51,136 nucleotides of DNA from the NCBI GenBank assembly GCA_002717835.1, contig PBBV01000008.1:1-51136 (forward strand), read 5' to 3'. Each line of letters begins with the position of its first letter. Position 1 is the first letter of the stretch. Both the position numbers and the translations under genes were made by a program. Shown here one piece after another: positions 9,263-44,089 of the stretch. The stretch comes from Methanobacteriota archaeon (lineage in GTDB: Archaea > Thermoplasmatota > Poseidoniia > Poseidoniales > Thalassarchaeaceae). The notes beneath the pieces were generated by a model. The model ran no database searches. It was not told the origin of the DNA and saw only the letters and a program-made list of their open reading frames with translations.

Positions 9263-9418
9263 TGTGAGATCTCCAATCATGCCAACACCGGGTATCGAGT
9301 TGACGTGGACACATATTTCAATCGTACCCGAATGGGGGCGAAGCGAGTATCATGGATAGCATCAGAGTATCATCTCTGAATGAACGCGTTCATATCTTAT
9401 CGATGTGGGCATCGTCTC

Positions 9419-26165: not shown

Positions 26166-26322
26166 TATGTATCACCTTTCATTACCATCAAAAGAGAAGG
26201 TATTATAATCTCCAATAGTCATATTATTAAAATATATCACTTTACGAATAAATGCACTGCAATTTACATTTTTGCCGTTGGCATCATAACCTTGGGCCTC
26301 CTGATTGGTATTGGGGAGAACG

Positions 26323-28311
26323 ATGGGAGAATGGCCTCCGAGTGAAATAACTCTGTCCAAAAATGGGCGTGTTCTATTCCTAACAAAGGATCCTTCACTC
26401 ATCAAGGCACAGCTGTACGATGGCCTTGATCTCAAAATGAAAGATCTAGACGTTGCAGATTTGATGGATGATATCAATACTGATGTAATGACTCCTGCAT
26501 GGGTTTGTTTCGATCACGAGCCTGCTGTGATTGCGGAGAATGCTTACGCGGGTTTACTTCATGAGGGTGAGAGAGTATTTCGTCAAGGTGCACTGAAAGA
26601 AGGTGGTTTTGAGGTGATTGTGAGCGGTCATAGAAAGGGAACTGGCAGCAGCCGTGAAACGGCTCCACAATGCGAGAGGTGGTCTGGAATCCGAATAGTG
26701 ATTGCCGCTTCATTTGCCCCCATACACGAGCGCAATAACATCAATCTTGGCCAGGTAATGGGTAATCATGCAATGTTGGAAAGATTACAAGGTGGTGAAG
26801 TCATACCCCTATCAGAATTTACAGAAAGATATGATCCTGTGACTCGACTTATTCTGGAAAATGGAGGGATTCTGCCATTCGCAAAAAAATTGGATGCGGG
26901 GGGTGTAGTCCTACCTGCCATATCAACTAATCAAAAGCCTATGACTATGGCTGAGAAAATCATATCTAACAAATTGATCGGAAGAGGTTCCGCTCCGTGT
27001 TACGTATCGCCAGGCGATGCTGTACTCGCAACGGTAGATGGGGGATACAGTCATGAGTTCACAACAGCTCAAGTCCATAATTTCCTGAAGGATGAATATG
27101 GAGAAAATTATTCCTTACCAAACCCCCCAAAATTTGCTGTTTTTGAGGATCATTTGCTCTATGCACCAGGTGTTCCAAGATTTGGAGCATTCACTGACAA
27201 AATTCAGATCTTACGTGATTTGCAAGTCGTATTTCAACGTCATACGGGAGTTAGGGACTATTCTGCAAAGAATGGGGTGAGCCCGGGGATATGCCATCAG
27301 GTGGCACGAGAAGAATTCATTGATGTTGGAGATTTCATCCAAGCCACTGACAGCCATACATGCATGGGCGGAGCGTCTAACGCCCTTACTTATGGTGTAG
27401 GATCAACTGAATACGCGAATCTTGTACACAATCAATTTGCATTCGTAAAAGTTCCAGAAAGTATTCGTTTCGAATTAATCGGTTCGTTGAATCCCGGTTG
27501 TACTGCAAAGGATGTTATTTTACACATACTATGGCACTATGCCAAGCACTCTGATACTCTCGATCGTTCAATGGAATTTGGTGGTGCTGGCCTTGCTTCT
27601 TTATCCATGGATGAAAGAGCGACATTATGCAATATGGCGACGGAATGTAGTGCAAAAACGGGAATATGTGAGCCAGATCAACTGACAATCAATTGGCTGT
27701 TGGAACGAAGAGGCGATTTGAATGAGGAAGATATCCGTAATGCGTTTGTATTCCCAGATATTGATGCACATTACGATGGAGGCATACATGTAATCGACCT
27801 CGACGGGATACGTCCAATGGTCGCCCATCCGGGTAATCCTGATGAGGGCGTCCCTTCAGATCCTACCAATGGGGCTTACATCGAGGAGATCGGAGATGTT
27901 CGAATTGACATAGCATATGCAGGTTCATGTACTGCTGGAAAGGATGACGATTTTGCGTATTATGCTATGGTCACTAAAGCTGCCTTAGATAAGGGTATGA
28001 AAATTGCAGATGGTGTGGAGTGTTACATCCAATTCGGTTCCAAATCTGTAAAGGATCTATCCGAAAGAAATGGATGGAGTTCGATGTTCGAGAAAGCAGG
28101 TGTAAAATTGATTGATCCCGGTTGTGGGGCATGCATCGGGGCTGGTCCGGGGGTTTCAAATGATGTTGGTCAAGTTACTGTGTCTGCAATCAATCGAAAT
28201 TTTCAGGGCCGTTCTGGTCCGGGAAAGCTGTATTTGGCCAGCCCGTTAACAGTGATGGCTAGTGCTTTTACTGGGAAGATATCTGCATGGGATCCGGGAC
28301 TTTTCGACTAA
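26323..28311 (+). CDS. Aconitase/isopropylmalate dehydratase superfamily hydro-lyase, swivel domain first
   Basis: N-terminal LeuD-like DDINTDVMTPAW...GHRKGTGSSRETAPQCERWSGIRIVIAASFAPIHERNNINLGQ; C-terminal ATDSHTCMGGASNALTYGVGSTEYA, GSCTAGK and DPGCGACIG (three Fe-S Cys). Confidence 0.85.
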   Translation: MGEWPPSEITLSKNGRVLFLTKDPSLIKAQLYDGLDLKMKDLDVADLMDDINTDVMTPAWVCFDHEPAVIAENAYAGLLHEGERVFRQGALKEGGFEVIVSGHRKGTGSSRETAPQCERWSGIRIVIAASFAPIHERNNINLGQVMGNHAMLERLQGGEVIPLSEFTERYDPVTRLILENGGILPFAKKLDAGGVVLPAISTNQKPMTMAEKIISNKLIGRGSAPCYVSPGDAVLATVDGGYSHEFTTAQVHNFLKDEYGENYSLPNPPKFAVFEDHLLYAPGVPRFGAFTDKIQILRDLQVVFQRHTGVRDYSAKNGVSPGICHQVAREEFIDVGDFIQATDSHTCMGGASNALTYGVGSTEYANLVHNQFAFVKVPESIRFELIGSLNPGCTAKDVILHILWHYAKHSDTLDRSMEFGGAGLASLSMDERATLCNMATECSAKTGICEPDQLTINWLLERRGDLNEEDIRNAFVFPDIDAHYDGGIHVIDLDGIRPMVAHPGNPDEGVPSDPTNGAYIEEIGDVRIDIAYAGSCTAGKDDDFAYYAMVTKAALDKGMKIADGVECYIQFGSKSVKDLSERNGWSSMFEKAGVKLIDPGCGACIGAGPGVSNDVGQVTVSAINRNFQGRSGPGKLYLASPLTVMASAFTGKISAWDPGLFD

Positions 28312-28417
28312 TTGCCACATAAGGTGGGATTCAACAATATCTCAGGGAAGGCCATAACGACAATTCTGGTCCTGGTGATTACAAGTTGTTCTTCATTGCT
28401 ATTTTACCTGCATTATG

Positions 28418-28477
28418 ATGGGGCATGCTCTAAGTGCTATCTGTCATAATACTACGTCTACCGACAGGAGGCCCCAT
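28418..28477 (+). ncRNA. Possible structured leader RNA upstream of top6B
   Basis: Nested inverted repeats ATGGGGC (28418-28424)/GCCCCAT (28471-28477) and CTGTC (28441-28445)/GACAG (28463-28467). Confidence 0.25.
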
Positions 28478-28519
28478 GTCATCAGGGCATAGGGAGGACC
28501 TTGTAGGACGGTGATCAAA

Positions 28520-30583
28520 ATGGACAAAGCGCAGAGGATTGCAAGCAAACAAAAGCAAATCTCGATAAGCGAATTCTTTGAAAAAAATAAGCATTTTCTT
28601 GGATTTGACACTCATCAAAGGGCCATTATAACTGCTGTTAAGGAGGCTGTGGACAATTCTCTTGATGCTTGTGAAGAAGGACGGATATTGCCTGAAATAC
28701 ATGTTGAAATAAAGCGGCTTGAAGGGGATCGATTGGAGCTTATAACCCAAGACAACGGTCCGGGGATACCAAGAGAATCGATAGCCAATGTGTTTGGTAA
28801 ATTCCTGCTTGGTTCCCGATTCCACGCTATTCGTCAGACCCGTGGTCAACAAGGTATAGGGATAACAGGAGTCGTAATGTATGCCCAATTAACGACTGGT
28901 TCCACTACTACTGTGATGTCAAAGATTGAAACAGAGTCAACAGCTGTCAGAGTTGATCTTGCATTAGATACCAAGAACAACAGGGCCTTGAAATCTAATG
29001 AAGATAGAATCCCCTTGGAAGAATGGTTTGAAGAAAGCGGCATGCAATCAGCCCATGGCCTAAGAATAAGAACGGTAATGGCTGCTAAGTACCAAAGAGG
29101 AAGGCAATCTGTTCATCAGTATCTGAGAATGACTTCCATTGTCAACCCTCATGCCACGATCAGACTGAAGGTCATTGGTAAGCAAGGTGAGATTATCGAC
29201 GAAGGAGAGTGGATAAGGACCACCAAAAAATTGCCAAGGCCTGTTGTTGAAATCCGCCCTCATCCCCATGGTATGCAATTTGGAACACTTCAGAGAATGT
29301 TAAAAAATACAAAGGAGAGAAATGTAAAATCATTTCTTAGAAAAGAGTTTGAGAAGGTGTCTCCACTCGTAGCCAAGAAAATTTTAGAACATGCAGAAAT
29401 AGATGAGAAAAAGAGGCCGTCTGGATTAAATGTAGAGGGAATTCAAAATTTGCTTTCTGCTTTCATGTCGGTGAAAATACAGGCCCCTCCAACTGATTGC
29501 CTCTCACCGATTGAAGACCTTCTGATAAAAAAGGGTCTTGAAAAGGCAATTGATTCGAGATATGCAGCAACAGTCACTAGAACTCCCACTGTGAGCCAAG
29601 GGAATCCGTTCCAAGTAGAGGTTGGGCTAGTCTTTGGTGGAGATCTTCCTTCAGATGGGGCTGTGGAAGTTCTGAGGTTCGCAAACAGGGTACCCCTGAT
29701 GTATCAACAAGGAGGATGTTTACTGACGAAGGGGATCGAATCAATAGATTGGCGGAGATATGGTCTTGAGCAGACAGGTGGAAAGGGAGTGCCCAAGGGC
29801 CCAGCTGCAATACTTGTGCATCTGGCTTCAACCAATGTTCAGTTTACTAGCGAAGCAAAAGAGGCTGTCTCGGAAAATGAAGAAGTTCTCGAAGAGCTGC
29901 GAAGGGCGCTCTTCGAAGTGGGGAGGGGGCTTCAAGGACATAGGAAAAGGATTGGTCAAAGAGAGAAATCTCGAGAGAAATTTGACTTGATCAATAAGAT
30001 ACTGCCAGAAATCGCTATCAAATCCTCATCCATGCTTGGACGTCCTGAGCCAGATCTGTCCCCAATAATAACCAAAATCATGAATGCCGTTTTTTGTGAG
30101 GAAGATGTGATATGGGATACAAAGAAAAAGTTGGCCAGATGCTCGATAAAAGTTTACAATTACACAGCAAGAGCAAGGGCGTATACCATTATTGTAAAAT
30201 GGCCAGAAAGAGATGGGGTTAGGCTGATCGAAAATGAAAGGGGAGGGCGTAAAGAAACTCGAGGGCTTTGGGCATGGCGATTGGATGCGATAAATCCAGG
30301 CAGTATGACTGAAATATCATTCGCAGTGGAGGGTCTGGCGCACGGAGATTGGAAAGAGGCAGAAGTATTCTTCCGAGGTAATGGGGAAATAATAGGCTCT
30401 GAAAAAATAGACGAGTCCTTGTTAGAAGAGATTCGAAAGCAAGAAGGTCTCAAAGGAGTGGTGGAGGAATTCGTAGAGGTGGCTCCTGTTCAGCGTCAGG
30501 TGATTGAGGTAGCGTCAGAGAGAGATTCATTCAACGAGGCGGATGAAAAAAAGGAGTGGAAAAGCGGTAATACGCTATTCTGA
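28520..30583 (+). CDS. top6B: DNA topoisomerase VI subunit B
   Basis: SISEFFEKNKHFLGFDTHQRAIITAVKEAVDNSLDACEE...ITQDNGPGIP...VFGKFLLGSRFHAIRQTRGQQGIGITGVVMYAQ (GHKL fold). Confidence 0.95.
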   Translation: MDKAQRIASKQKQISISEFFEKNKHFLGFDTHQRAIITAVKEAVDNSLDACEEGRILPEIHVEIKRLEGDRLELITQDNGPGIPRESIANVFGKFLLGSRFHAIRQTRGQQGIGITGVVMYAQLTTGSTTTVMSKIETESTAVRVDLALDTKNNRALKSNEDRIPLEEWFEESGMQSAHGLRIRTVMAAKYQRGRQSVHQYLRMTSIVNPHATIRLKVIGKQGEIIDEGEWIRTTKKLPRPVVEIRPHPHGMQFGTLQRMLKNTKERNVKSFLRKEFEKVSPLVAKKILEHAEIDEKKRPSGLNVEGIQNLLSAFMSVKIQAPPTDCLSPIEDLLIKKGLEKAIDSRYAATVTRTPTVSQGNPFQVEVGLVFGGDLPSDGAVEVLRFANRVPLMYQQGGCLLTKGIESIDWRRYGLEQTGGKGVPKGPAAILVHLASTNVQFTSEAKEAVSENEEVLEELRRALFEVGRGLQGHRKRIGQREKSREKFDLINKILPEIAIKSSSMLGRPEPDLSPIITKIMNAVFCEEDVIWDTKKKLARCSIKVYNYTARARAYTIIVKWPERDGVRLIENERGGRKETRGLWAWRLDAINPGSMTEISFAVEGLAHGDWKEAEVFFRGNGEIIGSEKIDESLLEEIRKQEGLKGVVEEFVEVAPVQRQVIEVASERDSFNEADEKKEWKSGNTLF

Positions 30584-31704
30584 TGGTGGTTGTTGTGCAA
30601 GATAGAACTCGAAGCAAGGAAGAGACAGTAAATGCGCTTCATGCGGTTGCAGCGGAAATGCATGATAGAATGATGAGGGGGGAGCCACCAAGAATGACTC
30701 TGCCAGTTAGATCAAAGAAAAATATAGCCTTCGACGAGAAGTTGAGTGTGTACAAATATGGCAGTAAGAAGACGATTAGAGATGCAACCAGTCTAGGTTC
30801 TGCACATCAACTTCTGAGGGCACTGCATGTCACAGAATTCATGGAAGACATGATTGAAAGTAAAAAATCATCAACACTAAGGGAGATGTACTACATCTCT
30901 GAGGGTTGGGGATATGGAAAATTTAGCTCTCAAAACGAAAGTAACAACCTTGCTGAAGACTTGGAGATTGTGACAGGATGTCTTAGGGAGGATTTCAAAC
31001 TAAGGCCGGAAGAGGATGGCGCTAGAATAATCGGAAATCTTACGTTCCAAGAGAAAAATCGACGTGGAGAGTGGATGAGAATAAACTGCAGAGATGATGT
31101 CGGCGATTCGGGTTATGGAGTTCCGTACAACGTGGAATCTGAAAAATTACAATTGATAGAACACGATATTGATTTCATGATGGCAATCGAGACGGGGGGG
31201 ATGTTTGATCGGCTTGTAGAAAATGGATTTGATGAGTTGGCAAGATGTGGTTTGATTCACTTGAAAGGGCAACCAGCTCGTTCCACTAGACGTGTGATGA
31301 AGAGGATTAATGAAGAGTGGGGAATACCCATTGTTGTTTTTACTGATGCTGATCCTTGGTCTTTCAGAATATTTGCTTCTATTGCATATGGTGCGATTAA
31401 AACAGCTCATATTTCGGAATATTTAGCAACCCCGAGTGCAATATATCTTGGTATAGAATCTGGGGATATAGAAGCATATGATCTTCCATCTGATGAGTTG
31501 ACGCCCAGAGATATAGAGGCATTGAAAGCGGAGAAGAGCGACCCTAGATTTCAAAGTCAGGAGTGGATTGATCAAATTGATTTGATGCTTGATCTTGGAA
31601 AGAAAGCTGAACAGCAATCTCTCGCCAAGTATGGTCTTGATTTTGTCACTGACACATATCTTCCAGAGAAGTTACAGCAGAAACTAGGACTTGTCATCGG
31701 CTAA
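30583..31704 (+). CDS. top6A: DNA topoisomerase VI subunit A
   Basis: [25 protein letters not shown] (catalytic Tyr region) and [26 protein letters not shown] Toprim DxD. Adjacent to top6B. Confidence 0.93.
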
Positions 31705-31735
31705 ACTCCAAATCAGAGCTTGTTGTGATTGGTGC

Positions 31736-32494
31736 ATGGCGCGTCTGAGCTATCCCCTCATTGCCCTCGTGGCTAGTCTTGTTTGTGTAGTCACATTCGC
31801 TATATCTTACTCAAATTTTGATGGTTATGGCGATCTTGATCCTGAGCAAAATAGCCTTAGTATAGTAGAATCAGGAGAATCATTTTCCATAGTCCTGAAT
31901 GAATATGATCAGATTTGGGTTTATTCTGAAAATAGTGAATCTTCCAATGCCAGCGTTACAATAAGAATCAATGGAACGGTTGTGAATGGCACTTCGCCAA
32001 AATGGTATGATACCTTTCTAACCAGTGAGGATGGGAAGAGAGTGTATGTGCCTTTAACTAAACTTGGACCGGGTCCAGAAGGCGATTATGTGTTTGAGAA
32101 TGATGGTTCATCCTTGTTGTATCTCGTAGATATGGTAGGCATAGGGGAAAATCTGTGGAAGGAGTCCTCTGTGCAAATCATGGCCGCCTCATGTTGCCTT
32201 TTTCCACTCATGGCAACATTGGGTATAGTTGGTCTATTTAGGTCTTCGAAATCTACCAAGAAAGAGCCTAAAATACTGATATTCGATTCTAATGTAGGTA
32301 TTCCAACGACTGAAGAAGTTTTCAGATCCGTGAATGACATATCAAAGGAAGAGGTGATTGTAAATTCTACCCCAGATCCGTGGAAGGAAGCGGTTTCTGA
32401 GGCTGAGGACATAGTCGAAAAAGTGCGTGATTCTGATGCAGGTTCTCGATTAGAAGAGGCTGAGGGTGATTGGCAAACCTGGGACGAAGGTTAG
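31736..32494 (+). CDS. Hypothetical membrane protein (two TM segments, acidic C-terminal tail)
   Basis: YPLIALVASLVCVVTFAISY and IMAASCCLFPLMATLGIVGLF flank an N-glycosylation-rich extracellular segment. Confidence 0.6.
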   Translation: MARLSYPLIALVASLVCVVTFAISYSNFDGYGDLDPEQNSLSIVESGESFSIVLNEYDQIWVYSENSESSNASVTIRINGTVVNGTSPKWYDTFLTSEDGKRVYVPLTKLGPGPEGDYVFENDGSSLLYLVDMVGIGENLWKESSVQIMAASCCLFPLMATLGIVGLFRSSKSTKKEPKILIFDSNVGIPTTEEVFRSVNDISKEEVIVNSTPDPWKEAVSEAEDIVEKVRDSDAGSRLEEAEGDWQTWDEG

Positions 32495-32528
32495 ATTTGT
32501 CACGCATGGTTTATCCGGGTCGGCACTA

Positions 32529-32545
32529 ACCAACCTTTGGTTGGT
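32529..32545. promoter_or_regulatory. Candidate operator palindrome ACCAACC-TTT-GGTTGGT
   Basis: Perfect 7-bp inverted repeat 5 nt before the ATG of the winged-helix regulator at 32551. Confidence 0.45.
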
Positions 32546-32550
32546 AAGTC

Positions 32551-33288
32551 ATGCCCGGGTTCGACGATGTCCTCTCAATTCTCGAAAATAAGTCGAGAAG
32601 AGAGATACTAGAATTGCTTACAAGAGAGCCGCACTACGCTCTTCAGTTATCTGACCTGCTTCAAATTAGCCAACAAGCCGTAGTCAAGCACCTTGGAATT
32701 CTAGAAGATGCTGGTTTCGTCTCAGTGGATACTGTTCCTTCAGAAAAGGGGGGGCCGCCCAAGAAAGTGTACAAGGTGACAGAGTCATTCTGTTTGCGTC
32801 TGGACCTTGGGCCTAGGCTGTTCAAAGCAAGTGGTAAAATGATGCCTTCTGGTGGTCCAATACGCCTTTCCTCAAAACTTCCAGAAGGTCTGGAAGATGT
32901 AATCGACACCATGGGAACTCGTCGTAAAATACCTATGAATGAAGCTATGTCAATTCTTTCAAAACTGCAGACGCGCCTTGAAAGGTTGGACGAGCAGCGA
33001 GATGCTTTAGTTGCCCTGCATCAACAAGTTATGATGAAAGTGGCGCCGAGTATCGAAGAGCTGACAGATAATTATGAAGAGCGCCAATTGGCTCATGCTA
33101 TGTTAGATCAGCCAAGGCGTCCTGTCGATCTTGATCTCTTCTCGCAGAGTATCAGAATTCAGTCCTCACAAGCTGAAGGCATCATGGCGGGCTTACGCGA
33201 TCGTCTAATCAGAGATCTAGCAAGAAGCAAAGGGAATGTTATCGCTGGAGGGGAGGGCACTCCTCTTCCCTGGTGGCTAGTACGTTGA
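32551..33288 (+). CDS. ArsR-like winged-helix transcriptional regulator
   Basis: SILENKSRREILELLTREPHYALQLSDLLQISQQAVVKHLGILEDAGFVSVDTVPSEKGGPPKKVYKVTE. Confidence 0.82.
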   Translation: MPGFDDVLSILENKSRREILELLTREPHYALQLSDLLQISQQAVVKHLGILEDAGFVSVDTVPSEKGGPPKKVYKVTESFCLRLDLGPRLFKASGKMMPSGGPIRLSSKLPEGLEDVIDTMGTRRKIPMNEAMSILSKLQTRLERLDEQRDALVALHQQVMMKVAPSIEELTDNYEERQLAHAMLDQPRRPVDLDLFSQSIRIQSSQAEGIMAGLRDRLIRDLARSKGNVIAGGEGTPLPWWLVR

Positions 33289-36200
33289 CTAAAATTCCAT
33301 ATCTTCATCAGTATAGACCATCATACTCCTCTTCTGGGCGTATTCTTTCATAGCCTCTATTCTTCGGCCCCAAATGACGACTACAGCAACTCCTCCGAGG
33401 GCAATTGTTGCCCCGATGATAATCACAGGAACGGAGTAAGTTGCGACGGCCTCCAGTAGCGGGTCGAGGAATCGATTATTGGAACCCATCTTATCGGTTA
33501 GAGACCAGTAGTTGTTTGATTCATCGGACTCTATGATATTATTGTCTGGGTCTACATACACTATTACGTCCTGAGAGCCCGCTTCTACAATGTAAAGCAG
33601 AGATATTTCCAAGAGTTCTTGATTACTGGACTGAGACACCGGCATAACTGCCTCGATTAACTGCCTGTAGACGATGTTGTCCTCATCGCAGCCATTCTTT
33701 CGAATGTCGGATGGGCTCTGATCGGCACAAAGAATTACGCTGACATCTGTAGCGTGTATGTTTCCTATATTTTGTAACTTGACTGTCACAGAAATCATTT
33801 CGCCAACCGCTGCTCTGGACTGCGGGGCATCTGCTGACAGTATCTTAAGATCAGGTGCTCTAAGCATCAATTGGAGGACCTGCTCATTGGAATCGCATGC
33901 CGGTGGGTAGTTATCTGGAAGGCCGTCCTTATTCTCGTCAAGGGTGCATGAATCGTCCCATTCAGGAGTCTCGTCGAAATCGCCGTCGGTGGCAGCTGAG
34001 CCATGTATTGATGTTGCTTTTATTCCAATTAATCTGTCACTTAACTGTGCTTCGTCATCTATCGATATTATTGCCACAAATTGAATTGTTGTGAATGCAT
34101 CCATCTCAGGGAATGTTACGGTACTCGTTGTCGAAGTGTAACATGCATCCGGTTCTGGTGCTATGCTCGGCTCGGGAGGAAGGCATGGCGCCTCTTTTGG
34201 AAATTCTGTGTCGAAATCCTCTACCAGTGCGTAAGTGATCATCCATTTAGAAAGCGTATTCATTCCTGGAGTTGAATCCCAACCTCCCCCTCCACCTAAT
34301 TTTGTGTGGTTGTGCAGCATCGGTGTATCTGGAACGTTTCCGGCATTTGTGAGGTTCATCAGGAAGCGGACTGTTCTACCGGGAGCACTGGTCTTTATTT
34401 TGGATTCCATGGCAGGATCTAGCGTAATCCTAAGATCGTGAAATTCTGAGATTTCCACTTGTAATTCGATGTTCTCTCTAACTTTGGTACCCTCATAGGG
34501 TTCTTCGCTAAGTACGTTCAACACAACGCTGTATGTCCCCGCAAGTGTCTTTTCTGGGACGTTGATGATCAAATCAAATTCTTTTGATTCGTCCCTCAAA
34601 AGTTCTCCAAAGTAAACTCTTGGTATCTCTATATCCCAAATGTATGCACCTTCTGGGCCGGTAACTGACTCGACCGTGATGTCGAAACGGTCAGGCCCGT
34701 TGCCGATGTTCGTAATTTCGGTGGACAAAGGATATGCTTGCCCTGGGTAGAGTTCTAGGACATTAGAGTCGACTTCGGCTTCAAGATCGTAGACTTGGAT
34801 CACGTTTGTTAGAAGCAACGCAGAGTCCCTCACCTCTGGTGTTCCTTCGAGGTGTGCTTTGACCACGACGGATTCCCCGAAGCCGGCTGTTGCATTGTAA
34901 GGGGAACACATATTCGCAGTGACCACGTATGGATTTCCGACAACTGCCCAATATCTTGGAGCGTTTTCTGGTATTCCATTACCACCAGGTGCGCTTGAAA
35001 AATCCAAGTCTACGGTCCAATGATCGTACCTCCACACACTCTGAGAGATGTCTGACGGTCTCTCCGATGGTCCACCTGGCGTGGTGAATATCAAAGACCC
35101 TGGAGAGTAATTTTTTGTAACCTCTATGTCGAATTCAGCACAGTCACCGGGTAGGACGTTCAAGTTCGTACCATCTGGTATCTTGAAAACTATGTTTCCA
35201 GATGTCTTCACTGAGACGTTTATCCATAGACCGAGTACATCATATGTGCCATGATCGATTTGGAATATCGGTTCTCCAGTGGACCATCCTTTGAGGTATA
35301 TCACATAAGTTCCAGGGGTCTGTGAAGTTGGTATGGTCACTCTGAGATTCTTAGTCACTGCCTGGCCTGGATCGAGTGATACTTCCGTGGGGAAATCTAC
35401 ACCCCAACCGAATTGTAGGCCCCACTCCATTTGGCCATCAAGTGTGGATGGGTCATGGAAAGCAAACGTATCGTAAACGTTGCCTGTATTTCTGACAATT
35501 ATGGAGAAGGTACCTGAACCACCCTGCTCGACATCGATATTTTTGTTGATTGTTGATAGATCGATTCCGTGGACTACATCCATCAAGATCACGAGTTGCC
35601 TTTCATCGTCGATGGCTGGATCTTTGTATGAAACTGCTCTTACCTTGATCTCTGCTAATTGGTCACCTTCGGCTTGATATATCGTAGGAGCCCTTACCCT
35701 CAAGTAAAGAGGAACTAGGTTTTCTCCGTTAGAGTTACCCTTGAGATGTATGGGTGTGGATTCAAAAATCGGTGTGTGATTGGATGCGTAATAGAGAGTA
35801 GCGCTCCAATTCATAGGGACGTCCTCTACAGTGAGGCGGAATGTATCTGCCACGAGATCGGATGGGCCAGGTGTTGGATTGTCGATAGTTAGATTGTAAA
35901 TAGTGCTCTCACCCGGTTCAATTACGTGATAATATGTCTCAGAGGGTGCGAGTGCGACGTCGACAAGCCCTGTTAGAACGTGGACGTAGCACAACGTCTG
36001 TTTAGGGCTGTTTGCTTCTCCGCATTTGGTTGAGTCGGACCAAGCAACATGGGCTCCGCTTCCAAGGTCATTAGAAAATGCCGGAGGGTTCCCAAGTTGT
36101 GGGTTTCTAGGAGAATTAGGGCCTAGTTTACCAGATTCCCATGTGGATACCTCGAATATCTCCCACTCATCTAATACAGCTATAGCGAGATTGTTCAGCG

Positions 36201-38433
36201 TGGGGAACCCGTTGGGATATTGGTCAGTTGTGCTGTTGAGACGAGTATACATGATCGTCTCACCTTGGGATTTGTTGCTGTTATCGAGCCATGCGATGTG
36301 TATGTTGTCGAAGTCATCAACCAATATGCCTGGAAGATATGATGTAGCCTCATATGGGCCTCTGTCTGGGTTGTCGTCGAACCAATCCAATCCTTCGACA
36401 TTGGAAATCGCAGAATCCATGATTTGCTTGATACCAAACGCCGGTAATCCGTCGCTAGCCCCATCCCACTGTCCTGCACCCTTGAGTTTGAGGCGTGTGT
36501 AGAAAATCTCGTAATTGACATCTAATTCGAAGCCATAGGACCTCCCATCCATCCAGGCTATGTGCGTGTTACCTTGGCTATCAAGAGCGACTTGTGGGTG
36601 AAGGCTGTATGCATCTTGGAGTGTGACGCGCGTGTCGTTTACTACTACGAGATGTCCGTATCCTTGGAGATCGAGGGAGGGGCCTACGTCTTCGATGTAA
36701 TATCTACTCCCGGAGGTCGCTGAACACTGTGGTACGCAACGGGTAGCAGACTGACCGGGGGCGAAACCGACCCATGGGTTATCAAGAAGGGCATATGGAT
36801 CGAGTACTGAAATGAATATTTCACGAGAAGCATTTGTTGCCAAATATATGAGTGCCTCCACCATGAACTGGAGTTCAGCTGCTGAAGACGATCCTGTTGG
36901 GAATGCATAAACTGCTCCCTCGGCATGTGTTGTTCTAGGCGCTCCTCCAGGGCAATATCTAGCCACTGAAGGTGTTCCGGGCTGATTATTGGGGCATTCA
37001 GCAAGGTCTCTCATCTGAGAACCTACGCTACCATCTGCACCGGCCCAGAGGGGCACTGGAGATATTCCTGCTAGGACACATGCGTCGTGTGCCTCGTTCA
37101 CGCTTTCGCGATCAGTTGCGTCCTCCGGGGATCCGTCATTAGCATTCTCATCAGATATTGGTATGATGATCTTGGTAGCATTTGGATTCCATCGGTGGTC
37201 CTCTGTTGTTGGGGGGTTAGCAAGGTTACCGAGTCTTCCTTGCGCGTCTCTCCATGAGAGGCAGGACCATGTGGATGAGGGGCCCCAAGCTTCCGACCCC
37301 TGGCCTCCTCCATCGTAACTTAGTGATATAGCGGCGTTGTTCAGTACCGCGCCGGTCAGCTTTCGAATGCCTCCAGATGTATCTGCAGGAGTCTGGCCAA
37401 GGTGATTCGCGCGAGGCCCCTGGCTTCCTGATCCTCCTGTCTGGTATGCTGTGGTACAGTAGCCTGAAGTTGCAGCAGCAACCTGTTGTACCCCTCCAAT
37501 TCCGTATAGTGTTTCGAATACTGTCATGTTAGCTTGCTCCAACATGGGTTTGAGGCCGATGAAATTGCCGCCAGATGAGAATTGTCCTCCATAGAAGACT
37601 GTGCACATGTCTGCCCATTCAGTTCCCATCGATCCAGAGGTGTCGATTGGCACGACCATCTCGACTTTGCCTCCCCTCGTGTCGTCCCAAACCACCTGAA
37701 CGAAATCGTCGTTATCCACAGCGATATCTGGATGGCCCTTCATACCGATTATTGGTGTCAGAAGTGTTGCGTCTATCTTTGATTGGGCTTCCCGGCTAGA
37801 GGCGTCTATCTCAATCATTTCATAATAAATCTGAGTCTGTGAGTAATAGAGGTCCAACGGGTCATTGTTATCCTGCCAAACGATGTGTGCATTGTTCAAA
37901 GAGTCTACAGCCACAGCAGGCCAATCCCTATCTTGGCTCCCGGTTCTTATTTCATAATCATCAATTATGGAGATGCCGTTCAATCCATCAATTGCATTCG
38001 AACCGTCTTGTTCGTGCATTGCAGGGTCCAACAACTGATACCAGATTGTCCATTGTCCAGATCTGTCAGCCCAGACGATATGCACCTTATCCTCAGAATC
38101 GACTGCGACGTCTGGGTGCCATGCTTGGTGTGCCCCGGGATTGGAAATTTGTGTCTCAGAGATCAATGTCTCGCCGGATGGGCCTAACATCTTGTAATAC
38201 AGGTGCTGGGTGTTCCTGCTCCAAACGAAGTGTACGTTTCCCTCTGAGTCGGAGTCGACAGCGACCATCGAATCTGAATTTGATCCGCTGTTTACGATGT
38301 TAATTGCATCTGTAAGAACAATTTCGCTGGCTTGTACCGGGACTGCAACACCCATTGCAGCGACTATACTTGAAAGCATAAGCAAGGTCATCATTATGCT
38401 GGAACGCTTCTTTCTATTCTGCATGGATACCAC
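33289..38433 (-). CDS. Large secreted/membrane-anchored protein with beta-propeller-like repeats, inserted VWA-like domain, NEW3/CARDB-like domains and C-terminal TM
   Basis: Signal peptide; seven (H)xAVDxxxxxHIVWxD-type repeats; VPIDTSGSMG; CARDB-like DLKILSADAPQSRAAVGEMISVTVKLQNIGN; TM VPVIIIGATIALGGVAVVVIWG. Confidence 0.82.
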   Translation of the reverse strand: MVSMQNRKKRSSIMMTLLMLSSIVAAMGVAVPVQASEIVLTDAINIVNSGSNSDSMVAVDSDSEGNVHFVWSRNTQHLYYKMLGPSGETLISETQISNPGAHQAWHPDVAVDSEDKVHIVWADRSGQWTIWYQLLDPAMHEQDGSNAIDGLNGISIIDDYEIRTGSQDRDWPAVAVDSLNNAHIVWQDNNDPLDLYYSQTQIYYEMIEIDASSREAQSKIDATLLTPIIGMKGHPDIAVDNDDFVQVVWDDTRGGKVEMVVPIDTSGSMGTEWADMCTVFYGGQFSSGGNFIGLKPMLEQANMTVFETLYGIGGVQQVAAATSGYCTTAYQTGGSGSQGPRANHLGQTPADTSGGIRKLTGAVLNNAAISLSYDGGGQGSEAWGPSSTWSCLSWRDAQGRLGNLANPPTTEDHRWNPNATKIIIPISDENANDGSPEDATDRESVNEAHDACVLAGISPVPLWAGADGSVGSQMRDLAECPNNQPGTPSVARYCPGGAPRTTHAEGAVYAFPTGSSSAAELQFMVEALIYLATNASREIFISVLDPYALLDNPWVGFAPGQSATRCVPQCSATSGSRYYIEDVGPSLDLQGYGHLVVVNDTRVTLQDAYSLHPQVALDSQGNTHIAWMDGRSYGFELDVNYEIFYTRLKLKGAGQWDGASDGLPAFGIKQIMDSAISNVEGLDWFDDNPDRGPYEATSYLPGILVDDFDNIHIAWLDNSNKSQGETIMYTRLNSTTDQYPNGFPTLNNLAIAVLDEWEIFEVSTWESGKLGPNSPRNPQLGNPPAFSNDLGSGAHVAWSDSTKCGEANSPKQTLCYVHVLTGLVDVALAPSETYYHVIEPGESTIYNLTIDNPTPGPSDLVADTFRLTVEDVPMNWSATLYYASNHTPIFESTPIHLKGNSNGENLVPLYLRVRAPTIYQAEGDQLAEIKVRAVSYKDPAIDDERQLVILMDVVHGIDLSTINKNIDVEQGGSGTFSIIVRNTGNVYDTFAFHDPSTLDGQMEWGLQFGWGVDFPTEVSLDPGQAVTKNLRVTIPTSQTPGTYVIYLKGWSTGEPIFQIDHGTYDVLGLWINVSVKTSGNIVFKIPDGTNLNVLPGDCAEFDIEVTKNYSPGSLIFTTPGGPSERPSDISQSVWRYDHWTVDLDFSSAPGGNGIPENAPRYWAVVGNPYVVTANMCSPYNATAGFGESVVVKAHLEGTPEVRDSALLLTNVIQVYDLEAEVDSNVLELYPGQAYPLSTEITNIGNGPDRFDITVESVTGPEGAYIWDIEIPRVYFGELLRDESKEFDLIINVPEKTLAGTYSVVLNVLSEEPYEGTKVRENIELQVEISEFHDLRITLDPAMESKIKTSAPGRTVRFLMNLTNAGNVPDTPMLHNHTKLGGGGGWDSTPGMNTLSKWMITYALVEDFDTEFPKEAPCLPPEPSIAPEPDACYTSTTSTVTFPEMDAFTTIQFVAIISIDDEAQLSDRLIGIKATSIHGSAATDGDFDETPEWDDSCTLDENKDGLPDNYPPACDSNEQVLQLMLRAPDLKILSADAPQSRAAVGEMISVTVKLQNIGNIHATDVSVILCADQSPSDIRKNGCDEDNIVYRQLIEAVMPVSQSSNQELLEISLLYIVEAGSQDVIVYVDPDNNIIESDESNNYWSLTDKMGSNNRFLDPLLEAVATYSVPVIIIGATIALGGVAVVVIWGRRIEAMKEYAQKRSMMVYTDEDMEF

Positions 38434-38493
38434 TCAGTATGCTGAATGCAACTCTAACCATACTTAATGTCGACCCACTCGGGTCAGATTTGA

Positions 38494-39126
38494 CTAGACC
38501 CACTCACTTGGATCGAAGCTCTGGCCGAATCCGGCTTGCTCATCGAAATCCACCTTAGCAGATTTTAGCGCTGAGTTTTGACCAGATCTGGATATTGGTT
38601 TCTTACCTTTCCAGTCATCTACCGGCCCGGGTTTACCTATTCCCTTGCCATAATCAAATTTTATTTGGTGTATTATGGAGAGTTTTGTCAGCCAGACGCT
38701 CCTCATTGTCTGCATAAGTTCATTTTGAGTGAGTCCATCAAACCAAATTGGACGTGATATATTGAACGCTTGGAGCGGTCCGGGCTTATTCTGTTCGTCT
38801 TCCTTGCCGACATGCAGGACCCAATCTAAAGTTGATCTTGTAAGATGCATTCTAATCTCATGTAGCCAACCTTTCCATCCGATTAGATCCTCGTCACCAT
38901 AGGTCACCATCTCGTCTTGTTGTCCCTGATCGACTCGAGTGATCGAGTACACCAACACAAGTGATCTCTTCTTTGGTATCACGATGTTGAAAACGTGGCC
39001 GTCTTTTGTAGGAGGATATTTGACATGGAGGTGCAATTGTGCTTTTCCGTCGTCAACAACCCTGTATTCGGAGTTCTCATCATCGAGCCACGTGCGGATA
39101 GCCGCAGAGGCATCCTTTGCATCCAC
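38494..39126 (-). CDS. Hypothetical protein, possibly DUF2299-like
   Basis: IRTWLDDENSEYRVVDDGKAQLHLHVKYPPTKDGHVFNIVIPKKRSLVLVYSITRV resembles DUF2299 archaeal proteins; from memory only. Confidence 0.5.
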   Translation of the reverse strand: MDAKDASAAIRTWLDDENSEYRVVDDGKAQLHLHVKYPPTKDGHVFNIVIPKKRSLVLVYSITRVDQGQQDEMVTYGDEDLIGWKGWLHEIRMHLTRSTLDWVLHVGKEDEQNKPGPLQAFNISRPIWFDGLTQNELMQTMRSVWLTKLSIIHQIKFDYGKGIGKPGPVDDWKGKKPISRSGQNSALKSAKVDFDEQAGFGQSFDPSEWV

Positions 39127-39147
39127 GACATGAATTTGTGAATCGTC

Positions 39148-40629
39148 CTATTTGAGGGCAACGAGATGCTCGTCCATCATAATGATGCTATCACGAAGAG
39201 TCTTGGCTGATGGACTTCGGATTAATGCAGCCCTTCTACGATCTCTTCTGAAATCATTTACAGAATCGTAACCCAGAGCCATCAAAATGGCTGCCAGGTA
39301 GAAAATGGGGAAGAGCACAATGAAGAACAGGGGTATGAATTGGAGTGGGAGGTTGTAGAATAAAAAGGCCGAAGCAGTCCACAGAATAGCAATCAATGGC
39401 CAGAAAAGGGGCAATGAAAACATCGCAGCCATCAGGTGGTATGTTGTTCTCGCGTCGATTCCTTCGTCCGTCCTATCTCCCAGCCACCATGCAAGTATAG
39501 CCTGAGGGAATGTACTCAATGTGAAAACTGGCATTGCTACTAACATGACAGAAGCCCCGAGAATCAGATAGAGTATGCTGGTTTTTTTCCTTATGATATG
39601 ACCCTCTGCATTCAAATCACGTGCGTCTAAGTCATGTTCATGTAATATTTTGGCTGCATTTACTGCCTTCTCTTGCAGTTCTTGGGGAATATTTCCCTCT
39701 CGCCATTCTTGTCTTATCTTTCTTGTTTCCAATACCTCCTGGTGGAGATCGTCAATAGGGGCCTGCGAGTTTCTGTGGGCCAAGAGTATCCATGCACGAT
39801 GTGTTTCCCAATCAGGAGCGTCAGGAACTGCTTCCTTGAGAATTGAGTATACTGAATCACGCATGGCGATAACTTCCGATTTGGGCGGTTCGACCCATTC
39901 TCCATTCAACAAAGATTGGGCCTGCTCCTGAGAATATGGATTTGGAATAGGTATCGGATCGAGGTACTCGACGTGATGGTCTGTTCTAAATTTTGTATGA
40001 TTTCTCCAGTGGAGACCAGCTGGTTGGAGATGTGGTTGGGGAAGATTTCGAATTTCTGCCAACGCAGCAGCTGCGAAAACCGTACGGAATGGCCCAGTTT
40101 TGAAACCGTGTAGAATTGGATCCTGATGTGAGGTCCCTTCAGGAAATACAACAGCAGAATAACCGTTAGAAATACAATTTGAAACGGTTAACATACTCCT
40201 CTTATTTATTTCTCCTGCGAAATCTGAATTAGTTATGCCTTCGTCCATCTCCGCTTTTCTCAAGATTGGTTGTATACCGAGACCTCGTGTCCACCAACCT
40301 AGTATCGGTCTTGTAACCAAATCATGACGCCCCAGCGCTGTAAATCTTCGATCTTGGCTGTGTACTATGACTAAAGGGTCCACTAATCCATTAATATGGG
40401 TTGATACTGATATTCTGCCGCCGCCTATTTCAGGTACTTCATCAGCCTTGGAGTTCCTGAAAATAATTCGATGGCCGATGGATATCATTGCTCTGAATAG
40501 CCACCACACAATTATCGATCCTGGGTGTTTTCCTGAATGGTCCCATGGAACCGATTTGAGCTTGCTAGTATCTATCCGCCTCGCGCTACTGGAAAGTTCC
40601 GGAGCCAAGGCCTCGGGCTTGCCGTCCAT
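39148..40629 (-). CDS. PlsC/GPAT-family acyltransferase with C-terminal TM region
   Basis: VSTHINGLVDPLVI (H-x5-D) and VVFPEGTSHQDPILHGFKTG motifs, then hydrophobic helices. Confidence 0.82.
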   Translation of the reverse strand: MDGKPEALAPELSSSARRIDTSKLKSVPWDHSGKHPGSIIVWWLFRAMISIGHRIIFRNSKADEVPEIGGGRISVSTHINGLVDPLVIVHSQDRRFTALGRHDLVTRPILGWWTRGLGIQPILRKAEMDEGITNSDFAGEINKRSMLTVSNCISNGYSAVVFPEGTSHQDPILHGFKTGPFRTVFAAAALAEIRNLPQPHLQPAGLHWRNHTKFRTDHHVEYLDPIPIPNPYSQEQAQSLLNGEWVEPPKSEVIAMRDSVYSILKEAVPDAPDWETHRAWILLAHRNSQAPIDDLHQEVLETRKIRQEWREGNIPQELQEKAVNAAKILHEHDLDARDLNAEGHIIRKKTSILYLILGASVMLVAMPVFTLSTFPQAILAWWLGDRTDEGIDARTTYHLMAAMFSLPLFWPLIAILWTASAFLFYNLPLQFIPLFFIVLFPIFYLAAILMALGYDSVNDFRRDRRRAALIRSPSAKTLRDSIIMMDEHLVALK

Positions 40630-40665
40630 GCTAACCCCTCATGTGCCCTCTGATGTTGTAAGCAT

Positions 40666-41085
40666 TCACTCATTGATATCGAGTTGAATAGCAGCGGCAA
40701 TGGACTGCCCCTCAAGCGGCTCTAATGATTCTGGTTGCCATGTGAATGAGTGTTTAGATTCTGCATACTTCGGAATTATATGAAAATGAACATGCGGAAC
40801 GGTCATGCCAGCTTCCCTCCCGTTATTCTGAATGATGTTGTATGCGATTGCTCCCGTGGCTTTTTTGATTGCACGGGATAAGATCGGCAATGCTTTCCCG
40901 ATGGCCGCTGCGGAATCTGGGCTAAGCTGATCAATCGTGGGTGCTGGTTCCTTAGACACGAGTAGGGTATGTCCTTTTGCAAGTGGATTTATGTCTAAAA
41001 AAGCGAACACATGATCATTTTCATACAGTTTGTAGCATGGTATTTCACCTTCAATTATTCTGGTGAAAAGCGTGTGTTCACTCAT
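40666..41085 (-). CDS. HIT family hydrolase
   Basis: LFTRIIEGEIPCYKLYENDHVFAFLDINPLAKGHTLLVSKE...GMTVPHVHFHIIPK. Confidence 0.92.
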   Translation of the reverse strand: MSEHTLFTRIIEGEIPCYKLYENDHVFAFLDINPLAKGHTLLVSKEPAPTIDQLSPDSAAAIGKALPILSRAIKKATGAIAYNIIQNNGREAGMTVPHVHFHIIPKYAESKHSFTWQPESLEPLEGQSIAAAIQLDINE

Positions 41086-41089
41086 ACGA

Positions 41090-42496
41090 TCACATTGTGA
41101 ATGATGCTGCGATAGTGCCAAGATCTTGGACTCTCAAAGCTCCTATAATCTCCTGATTCATGACTCGCGTATTTGTTGTTGTTTTCACTGTGTTAACAGT
41201 TTTCTCTGCGATTTCGATCAAGGACTCAACAGTTGCACTGCCAGTTAAGAAAGACTTCGCCTGCCCTGTTAATTTTGTCTCGGCGGCGCCAACTGAGTCT
41301 CCTGATTCCTTGTATAAATCTTCAATTCTTTTGTTGGCCGAATCTACACTTTGGAGGATGTCCTTCGAACCTCCAAACTCACAGTTTAATGACCATTTTC
41401 CTGCCTCTCCTCCTGCTAATGAACCAGTATAAAGATTCTCTAACATGGTATTTCCTGGTAATATCGATGAGGTGTGAAACCCAGTGCTTGCAGATGGACC
41501 TGCTGCATAAACGCCTGTTGCCCACATCTTGCCTGACTCGATTGTGACCCTCCCTTTTTCGTCCACAGGAATCCCGCCGGTGGTTTCCATAACCTGATGT
41601 TTTACTGGAATTACATCAATGGAAGTATCCAGTCCTGTGGAGTCCAGAATCGTCTTTCTAATCGAATCGAACCAAATTGAATGTTGGTTATCAATAAATC
41701 TCATATCTACTACCGCATCTTCTTTATGGCTCAATGGGTCAATGTCTTCACCAGATTCAGATCTATATCTTCCACCGACATCCAGAATCTCGAAGGGGAT
41801 TGGAACGTTCGTTCCTCTGATAACCATGGGATGGAGAGGCACCTTCTGCAAATTCTGTGGGCTGATGCCCGCTCTTATTGCCAACGCAATCGCATTTCCT
41901 GAGCCGATAGAAGGATTGGACCACAGACCTTGGTAGCCCTCATCGGCCAATATTATTGCCTTGCACTGATATGGCTTTACTTTCCCATCAAGTAAGTCTA
42001 GCGCAACAATTCCTCGAATCTGGCTGTTGTCCATCACCAATGAGAGTGGAATGTGATTCTGTCGTCTTTGAATAGACCTCTTCAGAACCTGTTCATCCAG
42101 AATCTGTGTTATGTATCTGTTAGTAGCGTCCCCTGCGCCGGAAAGTCGAGGTACGGCGTGTCCTGGCACTGATGAAAGGTGGGGTAATCCACCTTTGTCC
42201 CTCCGTAGTATCATCCCCCATCGCTCTAGCTCAGAAAGAATCTCCACCGATGAAGAGCATGTTCTTCTAACAGCTTGTTCATTCGTACTCTCATCTCCTA
42301 GCGCAATCGTGTCTTCGATGTGGGCTTCAGGAGTGGTTTCCCCTAGAGATGCGGCAAGTCCGGCGGTGGATGGACTTATGATTGGGCCTGGGGATTGGTG
42401 AACTAAGACAGTATTGGCACCGGAATCGCTAGACTCAATTGCAGCGCGAAGTGCTGAAGGTCCGGTTCCTATGACCAATACGTCCCACGACTCCAT
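41090..42496 (-). CDS. SdhA/FrdA-like FAD-dependent oxidoreductase
   Basis: DVLVIGTGPSALRAAIESSDSGANTVLVHQ Rossmann motif; ETTGGIPVDEKGRV...WATGVYAAGPSASTGFHTSSILPGNTMLENLYTGSLAG. Confidence 0.75.
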   Translation of the reverse strand: MESWDVLVIGTGPSALRAAIESSDSGANTVLVHQSPGPIISPSTAGLAASLGETTPEAHIEDTIALGDESTNEQAVRRTCSSSVEILSELERWGMILRRDKGGLPHLSSVPGHAVPRLSGAGDATNRYITQILDEQVLKRSIQRRQNHIPLSLVMDNSQIRGIVALDLLDGKVKPYQCKAIILADEGYQGLWSNPSIGSGNAIALAIRAGISPQNLQKVPLHPMVIRGTNVPIPFEILDVGGRYRSESGEDIDPLSHKEDAVVDMRFIDNQHSIWFDSIRKTILDSTGLDTSIDVIPVKHQVMETTGGIPVDEKGRVTIESGKMWATGVYAAGPSASTGFHTSSILPGNTMLENLYTGSLAGGEAGKWSLNCEFGGSKDILQSVDSANKRIEDLYKESGDSVGAAETKLTGQAKSFLTGSATVESLIEIAEKTVNTVKTTTNTRVMNQEIIGALRVQDLGTIAASFTM

Positions 42497-42549
42497 GTTG
42501 TTCAGTCAGCTCCAGACAAGTGTTCTGAATGAACATGACGCTTCGTTCG

Positions 42550-43977
42550 TTATCGAATGATGGTTCTAGTGATCATAGAATACACTTCTTTGATTGCATT
42601 TCTAATTGTACTGAATATGAATCCGTCTCCGTCTTCCATTATCGTCCACAATACGAGTGACTTGACTGTAGTTTCATTCTCCGTTAGAAGATTGACTTGA
42701 ACTGAACGGCCCTCATGTCCTGATTTATTCCACGCCATGCCGATCCAGAGAATGTGTGAATTGTCGATAATTTCGTTGAATCTGTTCCAACCATCTGTAC
42801 CGTCAGTTCTACCAGGCCTTACACTTCGATCGATAGGGGGAAGGCGAATTATCTGAATCTCAGGTTCTCCTTCAACGGTGATTATATCGATTTCAAACGG
42901 CCTGGAGGAATTCTGATCTGGGCTTGCTAAAACGAAAAGGTCGCTCTCACCATGCATTGCCCTCGGTGGAAGGTCCGCATCTAGTATCCATGTATCGGAT
43001 TTACGGGGTCTTGATTCTCTCTGTATTGTTCTAGACAAGAGTCGGAAAAGCCCTGGTTTCCTTTCAATGACGTGACTCAATAGCATTTCGAGTTGTTCAA
43101 AATTAAAAGGCACGTGTCTTTCTCTTAGACGTTCTACGGATCTGGAATTCAGGACCTCTGAACAAATCCTATCTTTTTCATTCTGTTCAATCTCTCCGAT
43201 CATTGAGAGGTAGATGGCTCTCAATACTGTTTCAATCGCATCTTCTGATTGCTGTTGTCGTCTTACCCCTTTACTTATTCTTTCCATCCAGAGGTTCCAT
43301 CTGCTAGAAGTTTCAGGGTCAAGGTGCGCATACACTAGATCGACTAGCAGAGGCTCAGCAAGAGTGTCGTGGAGAGATGGTGTGTGGAGTTTCAACAAGG
43401 GAGTGCTTCCAGTATCCATTGTTTTTTGATTTTCAATTGATAGTGTTGCAAATAGAATGACTATGGATAAGATGGCGGTCAGACCCAGAAGAGTTAACGA
43501 AAGATCTGTTTGAAGAGGAGTGGAAGAGATGGTTGAAGCGAGTACGAAACCCACTACAGCTGCAGAAACCCTGGTTCTCTCCCTGAGCTTATTCTCTTCG
43601 AGTTGATTCAATATTCTATCAACACCGACATATGATTCTCTGAGTGAGAATCCCTGTCTCCTAAGCTCTAACCGATCTTTGGCGGCCATTCTTGCATAAG
43701 AAGATGCAATCAAGGGGGGGACAAACAAAATGATAGAGATCAACCACATTATTCTAGAAGTGTTAAGAAAAGTTGAGTCCAAGAAAGTTGATGAGGCTAC
43801 GATAGATACTGGAAGAGCGAAAGCGAGCAAGTACCTCATAAAGCGAAGAACTGGATTCGTAGTGAGGTTTGTCCATCTTCCTCTCCATTTGTCCCTGGAC
43901 AATATTCTTCTTTCCATCGCTGAAGAAACCGAAGACTGTTTCTCTTCGGATTCGGCGTAAGGTGTTGGCAGATCCAT
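42550..43977 (-). CDS. Hypothetical membrane protein (about four TM)
   Basis: Hydrophobic segments FMRYLLAFALPVSIVAS, IMWLISIILFVPPLIASSY, VSAAVVGFVLASTIS, LLGLTAILSIVILFATLS. Confidence 0.6.
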   Translation of the reverse strand: MDLPTPYAESEEKQSSVSSAMERRILSRDKWRGRWTNLTTNPVLRFMRYLLAFALPVSIVASSTFLDSTFLNTSRIMWLISIILFVPPLIASSYARMAAKDRLELRRQGFSLRESYVGVDRILNQLEENKLRERTRVSAAVVGFVLASTISSTPLQTDLSLTLLGLTAILSIVILFATLSIENQKTMDTGSTPLLKLHTPSLHDTLAEPLLVDLVYAHLDPETSSRWNLWMERISKGVRRQQQSEDAIETVLRAIYLSMIGEIEQNEKDRICSEVLNSRSVERLRERHVPFNFEQLEMLLSHVIERKPGLFRLLSRTIQRESRPRKSDTWILDADLPPRAMHGESDLFVLASPDQNSSRPFEIDIITVEGEPEIQIIRLPPIDRSVRPGRTDGTDGWNRFNEIIDNSHILWIGMAWNKSGHEGRSVQVNLLTENETTVKSLVLWTIMEDGDGFIFSTIRNAIKEVYSMITRTIIR

Positions 43978-44089
43978 ATGTGGTTCGGCCGACCCTTTTG
44001 CTGAATGTGTTTGAGGTCATCGCTCGTTGAAGCGAAAATTTGGCTATTCGATAGGAGGCTTTCTTGAATGAGGCGGCCTGGGGCGGAAC

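Follow-up and report, generated by a model that had tools for sequence, protein, structure and literature searches.

This locus raises the question of what a large surface protein, in which one domain appears to be set into the middle of another, is built to do. The gene occupies positions 33289-38433 on the minus strand (which also holds for the parts of the protein given below) of a 51,136-nucleotide window, the whole stretch of DNA that we analysed, and it encodes a 1714-aa secreted, membrane-anchored protein with a propeller, a VWA-like domain and an Ig-like stalk, whose relatives are full-length and free of internal stops. At its N-terminus, a predicted Sec-type signal peptide (residues 1-36; 38326-38433) can be read from a KKR n-region, a hydrophobic core and a site between VQA and S; it is the least conserved segment of the protein (median identity 0.31), and the true start may alternatively be the ATG at residue 4. 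The stalk (residues 833-1654; 33472-35937) comprises about six Ig-like repeats, counted by eye, and its Pfam matches to NPCBM_assoc/NEW3 (just above the cutoff), to an Ig_VWA7-like family (below it) and, proximal to the membrane, to CARDB (PF07705, E 8.9e-13; residues 1526-1642; 33508-33858) confirm the NEW3/CARDB-like stalk proposed in an earlier note. The C-terminal membrane segment, likewise proposed there, is evident as a single helix at residues ~1667-1688 (33370-33435), which reads SVPVIIIGATIALGGVAVVVIW followed by GRR, a pattern that recurs in orthologues with complete C-termini. By the positive-inside rule, the remaining 26 residues (1689-1714; 33292-33369) would form a short cytoplasmic tail, in which RR...AEQSSL and an acidic end recur across orthologues.

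All seven repeats quoted in the earlier note are present in this ORF, and two counts of the blades agree. The motif D-x(3-9)-[HQ][IFV][VA]W-x-[DRN] occurs at seven separate sites (residues ~60, 112, 177, 240, 618, 706 and 789), compared to a mean of 0.002 in shuffled sequence. A blade HMM, built only from Thermoplasmatota propellers that lack the VWA insert and have uninterrupted blades, returned seven units and no more, at residues 58, 107, 172, 235, 613, 701 and 795, the seventh being weak (1.8 bits) and the fourth broken off after strand 2. Together with the strands of an AlphaFold2 model, these matches delimit a first part of the propeller (residues 37-254; 37672-38325) with an N-terminal strand, blades 1-3 and strands 1-2 of blade 4, as well as blades 5-7 (residues 610-832; 35938-36606). 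The model, which covered residues 37-840, had a mean pLDDT of 51.8 and a pTM of 0.61, with the propeller strands mostly at ~70-89, and the PDB entries that it matched in Foldseek were nearly all propellers. Three of these (5mum, 5mvh and 5uam) aligned over all 804 residues at target-normalised TM scores of 0.57-0.59 and an rmsd of 10-15 A, a deviation at which they support one closed propeller made from both halves but stop short of proof. These matches take in both halves and are in line with the single propeller that the earlier note had claimed: seven four-stranded BNR/sialidase-like blades are predicted to close on themselves, with the N-terminal strand as a candidate velcro strand for blade 7. 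The blade repeat is shared with lipoproteins carrying a PDIAV motif (NCBIfam NF053835; E 6e-15, under the family cutoff) and with BNR-like propellers of Thermoplasmatota, which differ from the present protein in that those examined lack a VWA domain. The source genome (G000), a metagenome-assembled genome of Thermoplasmatota that its named relatives place in Poseidoniales (Marine Group II), holds two further matches to a profile of the first propeller half.

The earlier note had placed an insert of roughly 290 aa between repeats 4 and 5. To locate it, we joined every possible residue pair flanking the insert in silico and scored each spliced product with the blade model. The best junction, residue 254 to residue 535, lifted blade 4 from 13.9 bits to a score on a par with the other blades (19.7 bits) and thus places the insert at residues ~255-534 (36832-37671), within the strand 2-3 hairpin of blade 4. 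An insert of ~280 aa is thus real, but it lies inside the fourth blade rather than behind it. The remainder of blade 4 follows at residues 535-609 (36607-36831), where REIFISVLDPY resembles strand 3 of other blades, in line with the splice test. From the strand order and propeller nomenclature, we infer that this strand 2-3 (B-C) loop lies on the upper face of the propeller.

Identification of the insert itself required intermediates. Searching Pfam, NCBIfam and PDB sequences directly gave no identification, profile searches yielded no PDB relative, and a p53 match (E 0.7) was dismissed as chance. Pfam VWA matched 4 of 25 insert sequences, all below the cutoff (best E 0.0046), and no other Pfam family recurred among the 25; in a 40-genome sample of the class, Pfam VWA had no match in any of the 20 Poseidoniales genomes, the source genome included. 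Because the domain lies under the Pfam threshold, standard annotation misses it. The connection was provided by a bridging family of four sequences from large Ig-repeat proteins (loci L117-L121), one of which passes the PF00092 cutoff on its own. In hhalign, the insert matched this family at 99.9% (E 8e-31), and the family in turn matched 24 canonical archaeal VWA domains at 97.4% over 169 columns (E 1e-11). Compared directly with canonical VWA, the insert reached 83% over only 44 columns (E 1e-5), scarcely improved to 87.9% when insert and bridging sequences were pooled in one profile, while the controls stayed at 0.4% (reversed insert) and 0.1-0.2% (propeller halves). The bridging proteins, the nearest relatives of the insert, share with it the MIDAS motif as well as E(S/T)W(G/A) and SDE, but they carry their VWA domain between Ig-like repeats rather than inside a propeller and lack the extra loops and most of the cysteines. 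An AlphaFold2 model of the insert of one orthologue alone (16 rows; pLDDT 38.7) showed a VWA-like order of strands and helices and no PDB match; at such confidence, its Foldseek matches are meaningless. Overall, the bridging profiles with their reversed controls, the invariant MIDAS-type residues and the secondary-structure order support the VWA-like domain that the earlier note had proposed, and membership of the VWA superfamily is strongly supported at the level of sequence profiles.

The DTSGSM and IIIPISDE motifs and the cysteines of the insert read as originally quoted and are strongly conserved. D264, S266 and S268 of the first MIDAS motif (D264-T-S-G-S268; 37630-37644), S353 and D428 each occur in 55 of 55 orthologues. 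S353, in a DxSGG loop (37375-37377), is the candidate second motif by its position and is also kept in 11 of 13 paralogues; D428, within IIIPISDE (37150-37152), forms the third motif, is found in all 68 proteins compared and lines up with the motif LTDG in canonical VWA domains. These five residues probably constitute a metal-binding site. The VWA core ranks with the most conserved segments of the protein, and among paralogues it is the part best kept (0.52 vs 0.26-0.33 for the propeller). Six cysteines of the insert are invariant (68/68), suggesting a rigid, disulfide-tied domain. Paralogues occur mainly in one Poseidoniales family, with unsettled positions in the tree. Five of them (L074, L075, L076, L077 and L082) carry an extra insert, beta-rich and roughly 140-250 aa long, within the VWA-like domain, located after a strand near its C-terminal end and before the last helix, which makes three levels of nesting; the extra insert of L074 had no Pfam match. 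In L067 and L071, the MIDAS is degraded (DSSTGM and GSSTGM) with the remainder of the domain retained, which suggests a non-metal role for this group.

The insert profile found the protein in 80 of 82 genomes of Poseidoniales (Marine Group II); it weakly matched large Ig-repeat proteins from four genomes of another Thermoplasmatota family and had no match in the sister family within the class. Both Poseidoniales families share the surrounding gene order, which runs FAD protein, HIT, acyltransferase, DUF2299, surface protein, convergent HTH regulator and topoisomerase VI. The conserved neighbourhood spans 26305-44000 of the window order-wide and includes topoisomerase VI A; DUF2299 lies directly upstream of the surface-protein gene, and the convergent HTH gene is ArsR-like. 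Elsewhere in the window, a 2661-aa ORF lies at 1295-9280 on the minus strand. With a dN/dS of ~0.01 against a 97%-identical congener, the surface-protein gene is under strong purifying selection. A second, partial copy (551 aa, ending at the contig end) stands directly downstream of the full gene at L083 (G011:C363). No relative was found among viral contigs or phage records, and a viral origin was rejected. We also rejected horizontal transfer to a deltaproteobacterium (L045; JAOMAZ010000009.1), because the contig bears the Poseidoniales gene order upstream and is most likely contaminating or mislabelled.

As our main reading, to which we assign a probability of roughly 60%, we propose from the sequence that the protein serves Poseidoniales as a metal-dependent adhesin or receptor head at the cell surface. 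It would be exported and anchored by its one C-terminal membrane helix, and the row of Ig-like domains would lift the binding head away from the cell. At the far end, the closed seven-bladed propeller would present the VWA domain carried in its blade 4 strand 2-3 loop, and this domain would most likely bind a partner by an acidic group, via a divalent metal coordinated by D264, S266, S268, S353 and D428; the propeller itself may additionally bind glycans. The MIDAS-type site is invariant and its VWA domain exported, which argues for such a metal-dependent contact with an acidic group. Against a ligand-binding reading, MIDAS residues can also act within a molecule or in assembly. In coastal waters, Marine Group II cells were reported to be mostly free-living (PMC6864105), which weakens a role in particle adhesion specifically. 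The one paralogue group with a degraded MIDAS also counts against an adhesin or receptor.

The strongest competitor, although we regard it as unlikely, is a structural envelope protein, in which a conserved, single-copy Ig-stalk protein of the cell coat would use its VWA domain for metal-dependent contacts between neighbouring subunits. Near-universal presence, synteny and strong constraint are what a housekeeping envelope component would display, and the rigid domain suggested by the six invariant cysteines would suit it as well. Lattice-forming S-layer proteins, however, usually have no long flexible stalk topped by an elaborate nested head, and diversified binding better accounts for the paralogues in which the head is altered and the MIDAS degraded. 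Somewhat less probable again is a propeller that degrades polysaccharides or acts as a lectin, the VWA being an accessory domain that positions the substrate. The best Foldseek matches of the propeller were indeed GH145, PL24/PL25 ulvan lyases, fucose-binding PLL lectins and sialidases, but at 6-15% identity they reflect the common seven-bladed fold, and no glycosidase or lyase family appeared up to E 10 in Pfam or NCBIfam. Least probable is that the insert is an unrelated alpha/beta domain with a coincidental DTSGSM, a view favoured by the sub-cutoff Pfam scores of all 25 members scanned, the profile search without a PDB relative and the low-confidence AlphaFold2 model of the insert, but opposed by the alignment of the bridging homologues over the full-length VWA with reversed controls, by VWA as the sole recurring Pfam match (4/25) and by the three invariant MIDAS-type positions.

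Two known systems invite comparison with the adhesin or receptor head that we propose. PilY1/PilC adhesins at the tip of type IV pili also unite a VWA domain and a seven-bladed propeller in a prokaryotic surface protein (PMC11891296). In PilY1, the two domains stand in tandem, whereas those of the archaeal protein are nested, and PilY1 has no membrane stalk. The PilY1 propeller family PF05567 had no match in the surface protein up to E 10 and none in 21 relatives, with the control genomes likewise giving no match. Closer in layout are the alpha-I integrins, which share a signal peptide, a seven-bladed propeller with a loop-inserted VWA domain, Ig-like domains, a C-terminal membrane helix and a short tail, with intact MIDAS-type residues in both. 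The insertion loops are 2-3 in the archaeal protein and 4-1 in the integrin, both of which belong to the upper face by propeller nomenclature. The integrin VWA, which binds its ligand through its MIDAS, is inserted between blades 2 and 3 (PMC3192720), while the archaeal one sits inside blade 4. The archaeal repeats are BNR/sialidase-like and those of integrins FG-GAP, a family (PF01839) that had no match in the surface protein up to E 10; FG-GAP (integrin-type) repeats do occur in other Poseidoniales proteins of 1000-2240 aa (G037:C1:559822-560841, G042:C20:5671-6720, G038:C26:220061-221065 and others). Further differences are the six invariant cysteines of the archaeal VWA domain and the integrin beta subunit, as no such partner is known for the archaeal protein; integrin beta (PF00362) had no match in 21 relatives, nor in the control genomes. 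We rejected true integrin kinship on the insertion site and the propeller family; with a chordate origin of the integrin I domain (PMC3192720, PMC10659397), the resemblance is convergence and not membership. Integrins were the only described case of a propeller-inserted VWA domain in the part of the literature that our search covered. It is conceivable, and we put it forward tentatively, that Poseidoniales independently evolved the head design of alpha-I integrins and use it as a near-universal surface receptor, possibly with binding gated by metal and force and with coupling either way through the tail.

Poseidoniales rank among the most abundant archaea of the surface oceans and are uncultured. 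Their mode of contact with particles, algae or one another is a matter of debate, in which flagella have been the main proposal in print. A VWA domain nested in a propeller on an Ig-like stalk suggests, from its sequence, a dedicated grip or sensor, and the surface protein described here is a concrete, near-universal candidate for such contact. It also offers an independent natural comparison to the alpha-I integrins, in which one may ask whether the nesting of a VWA domain in a propeller alone favours regulated binding.
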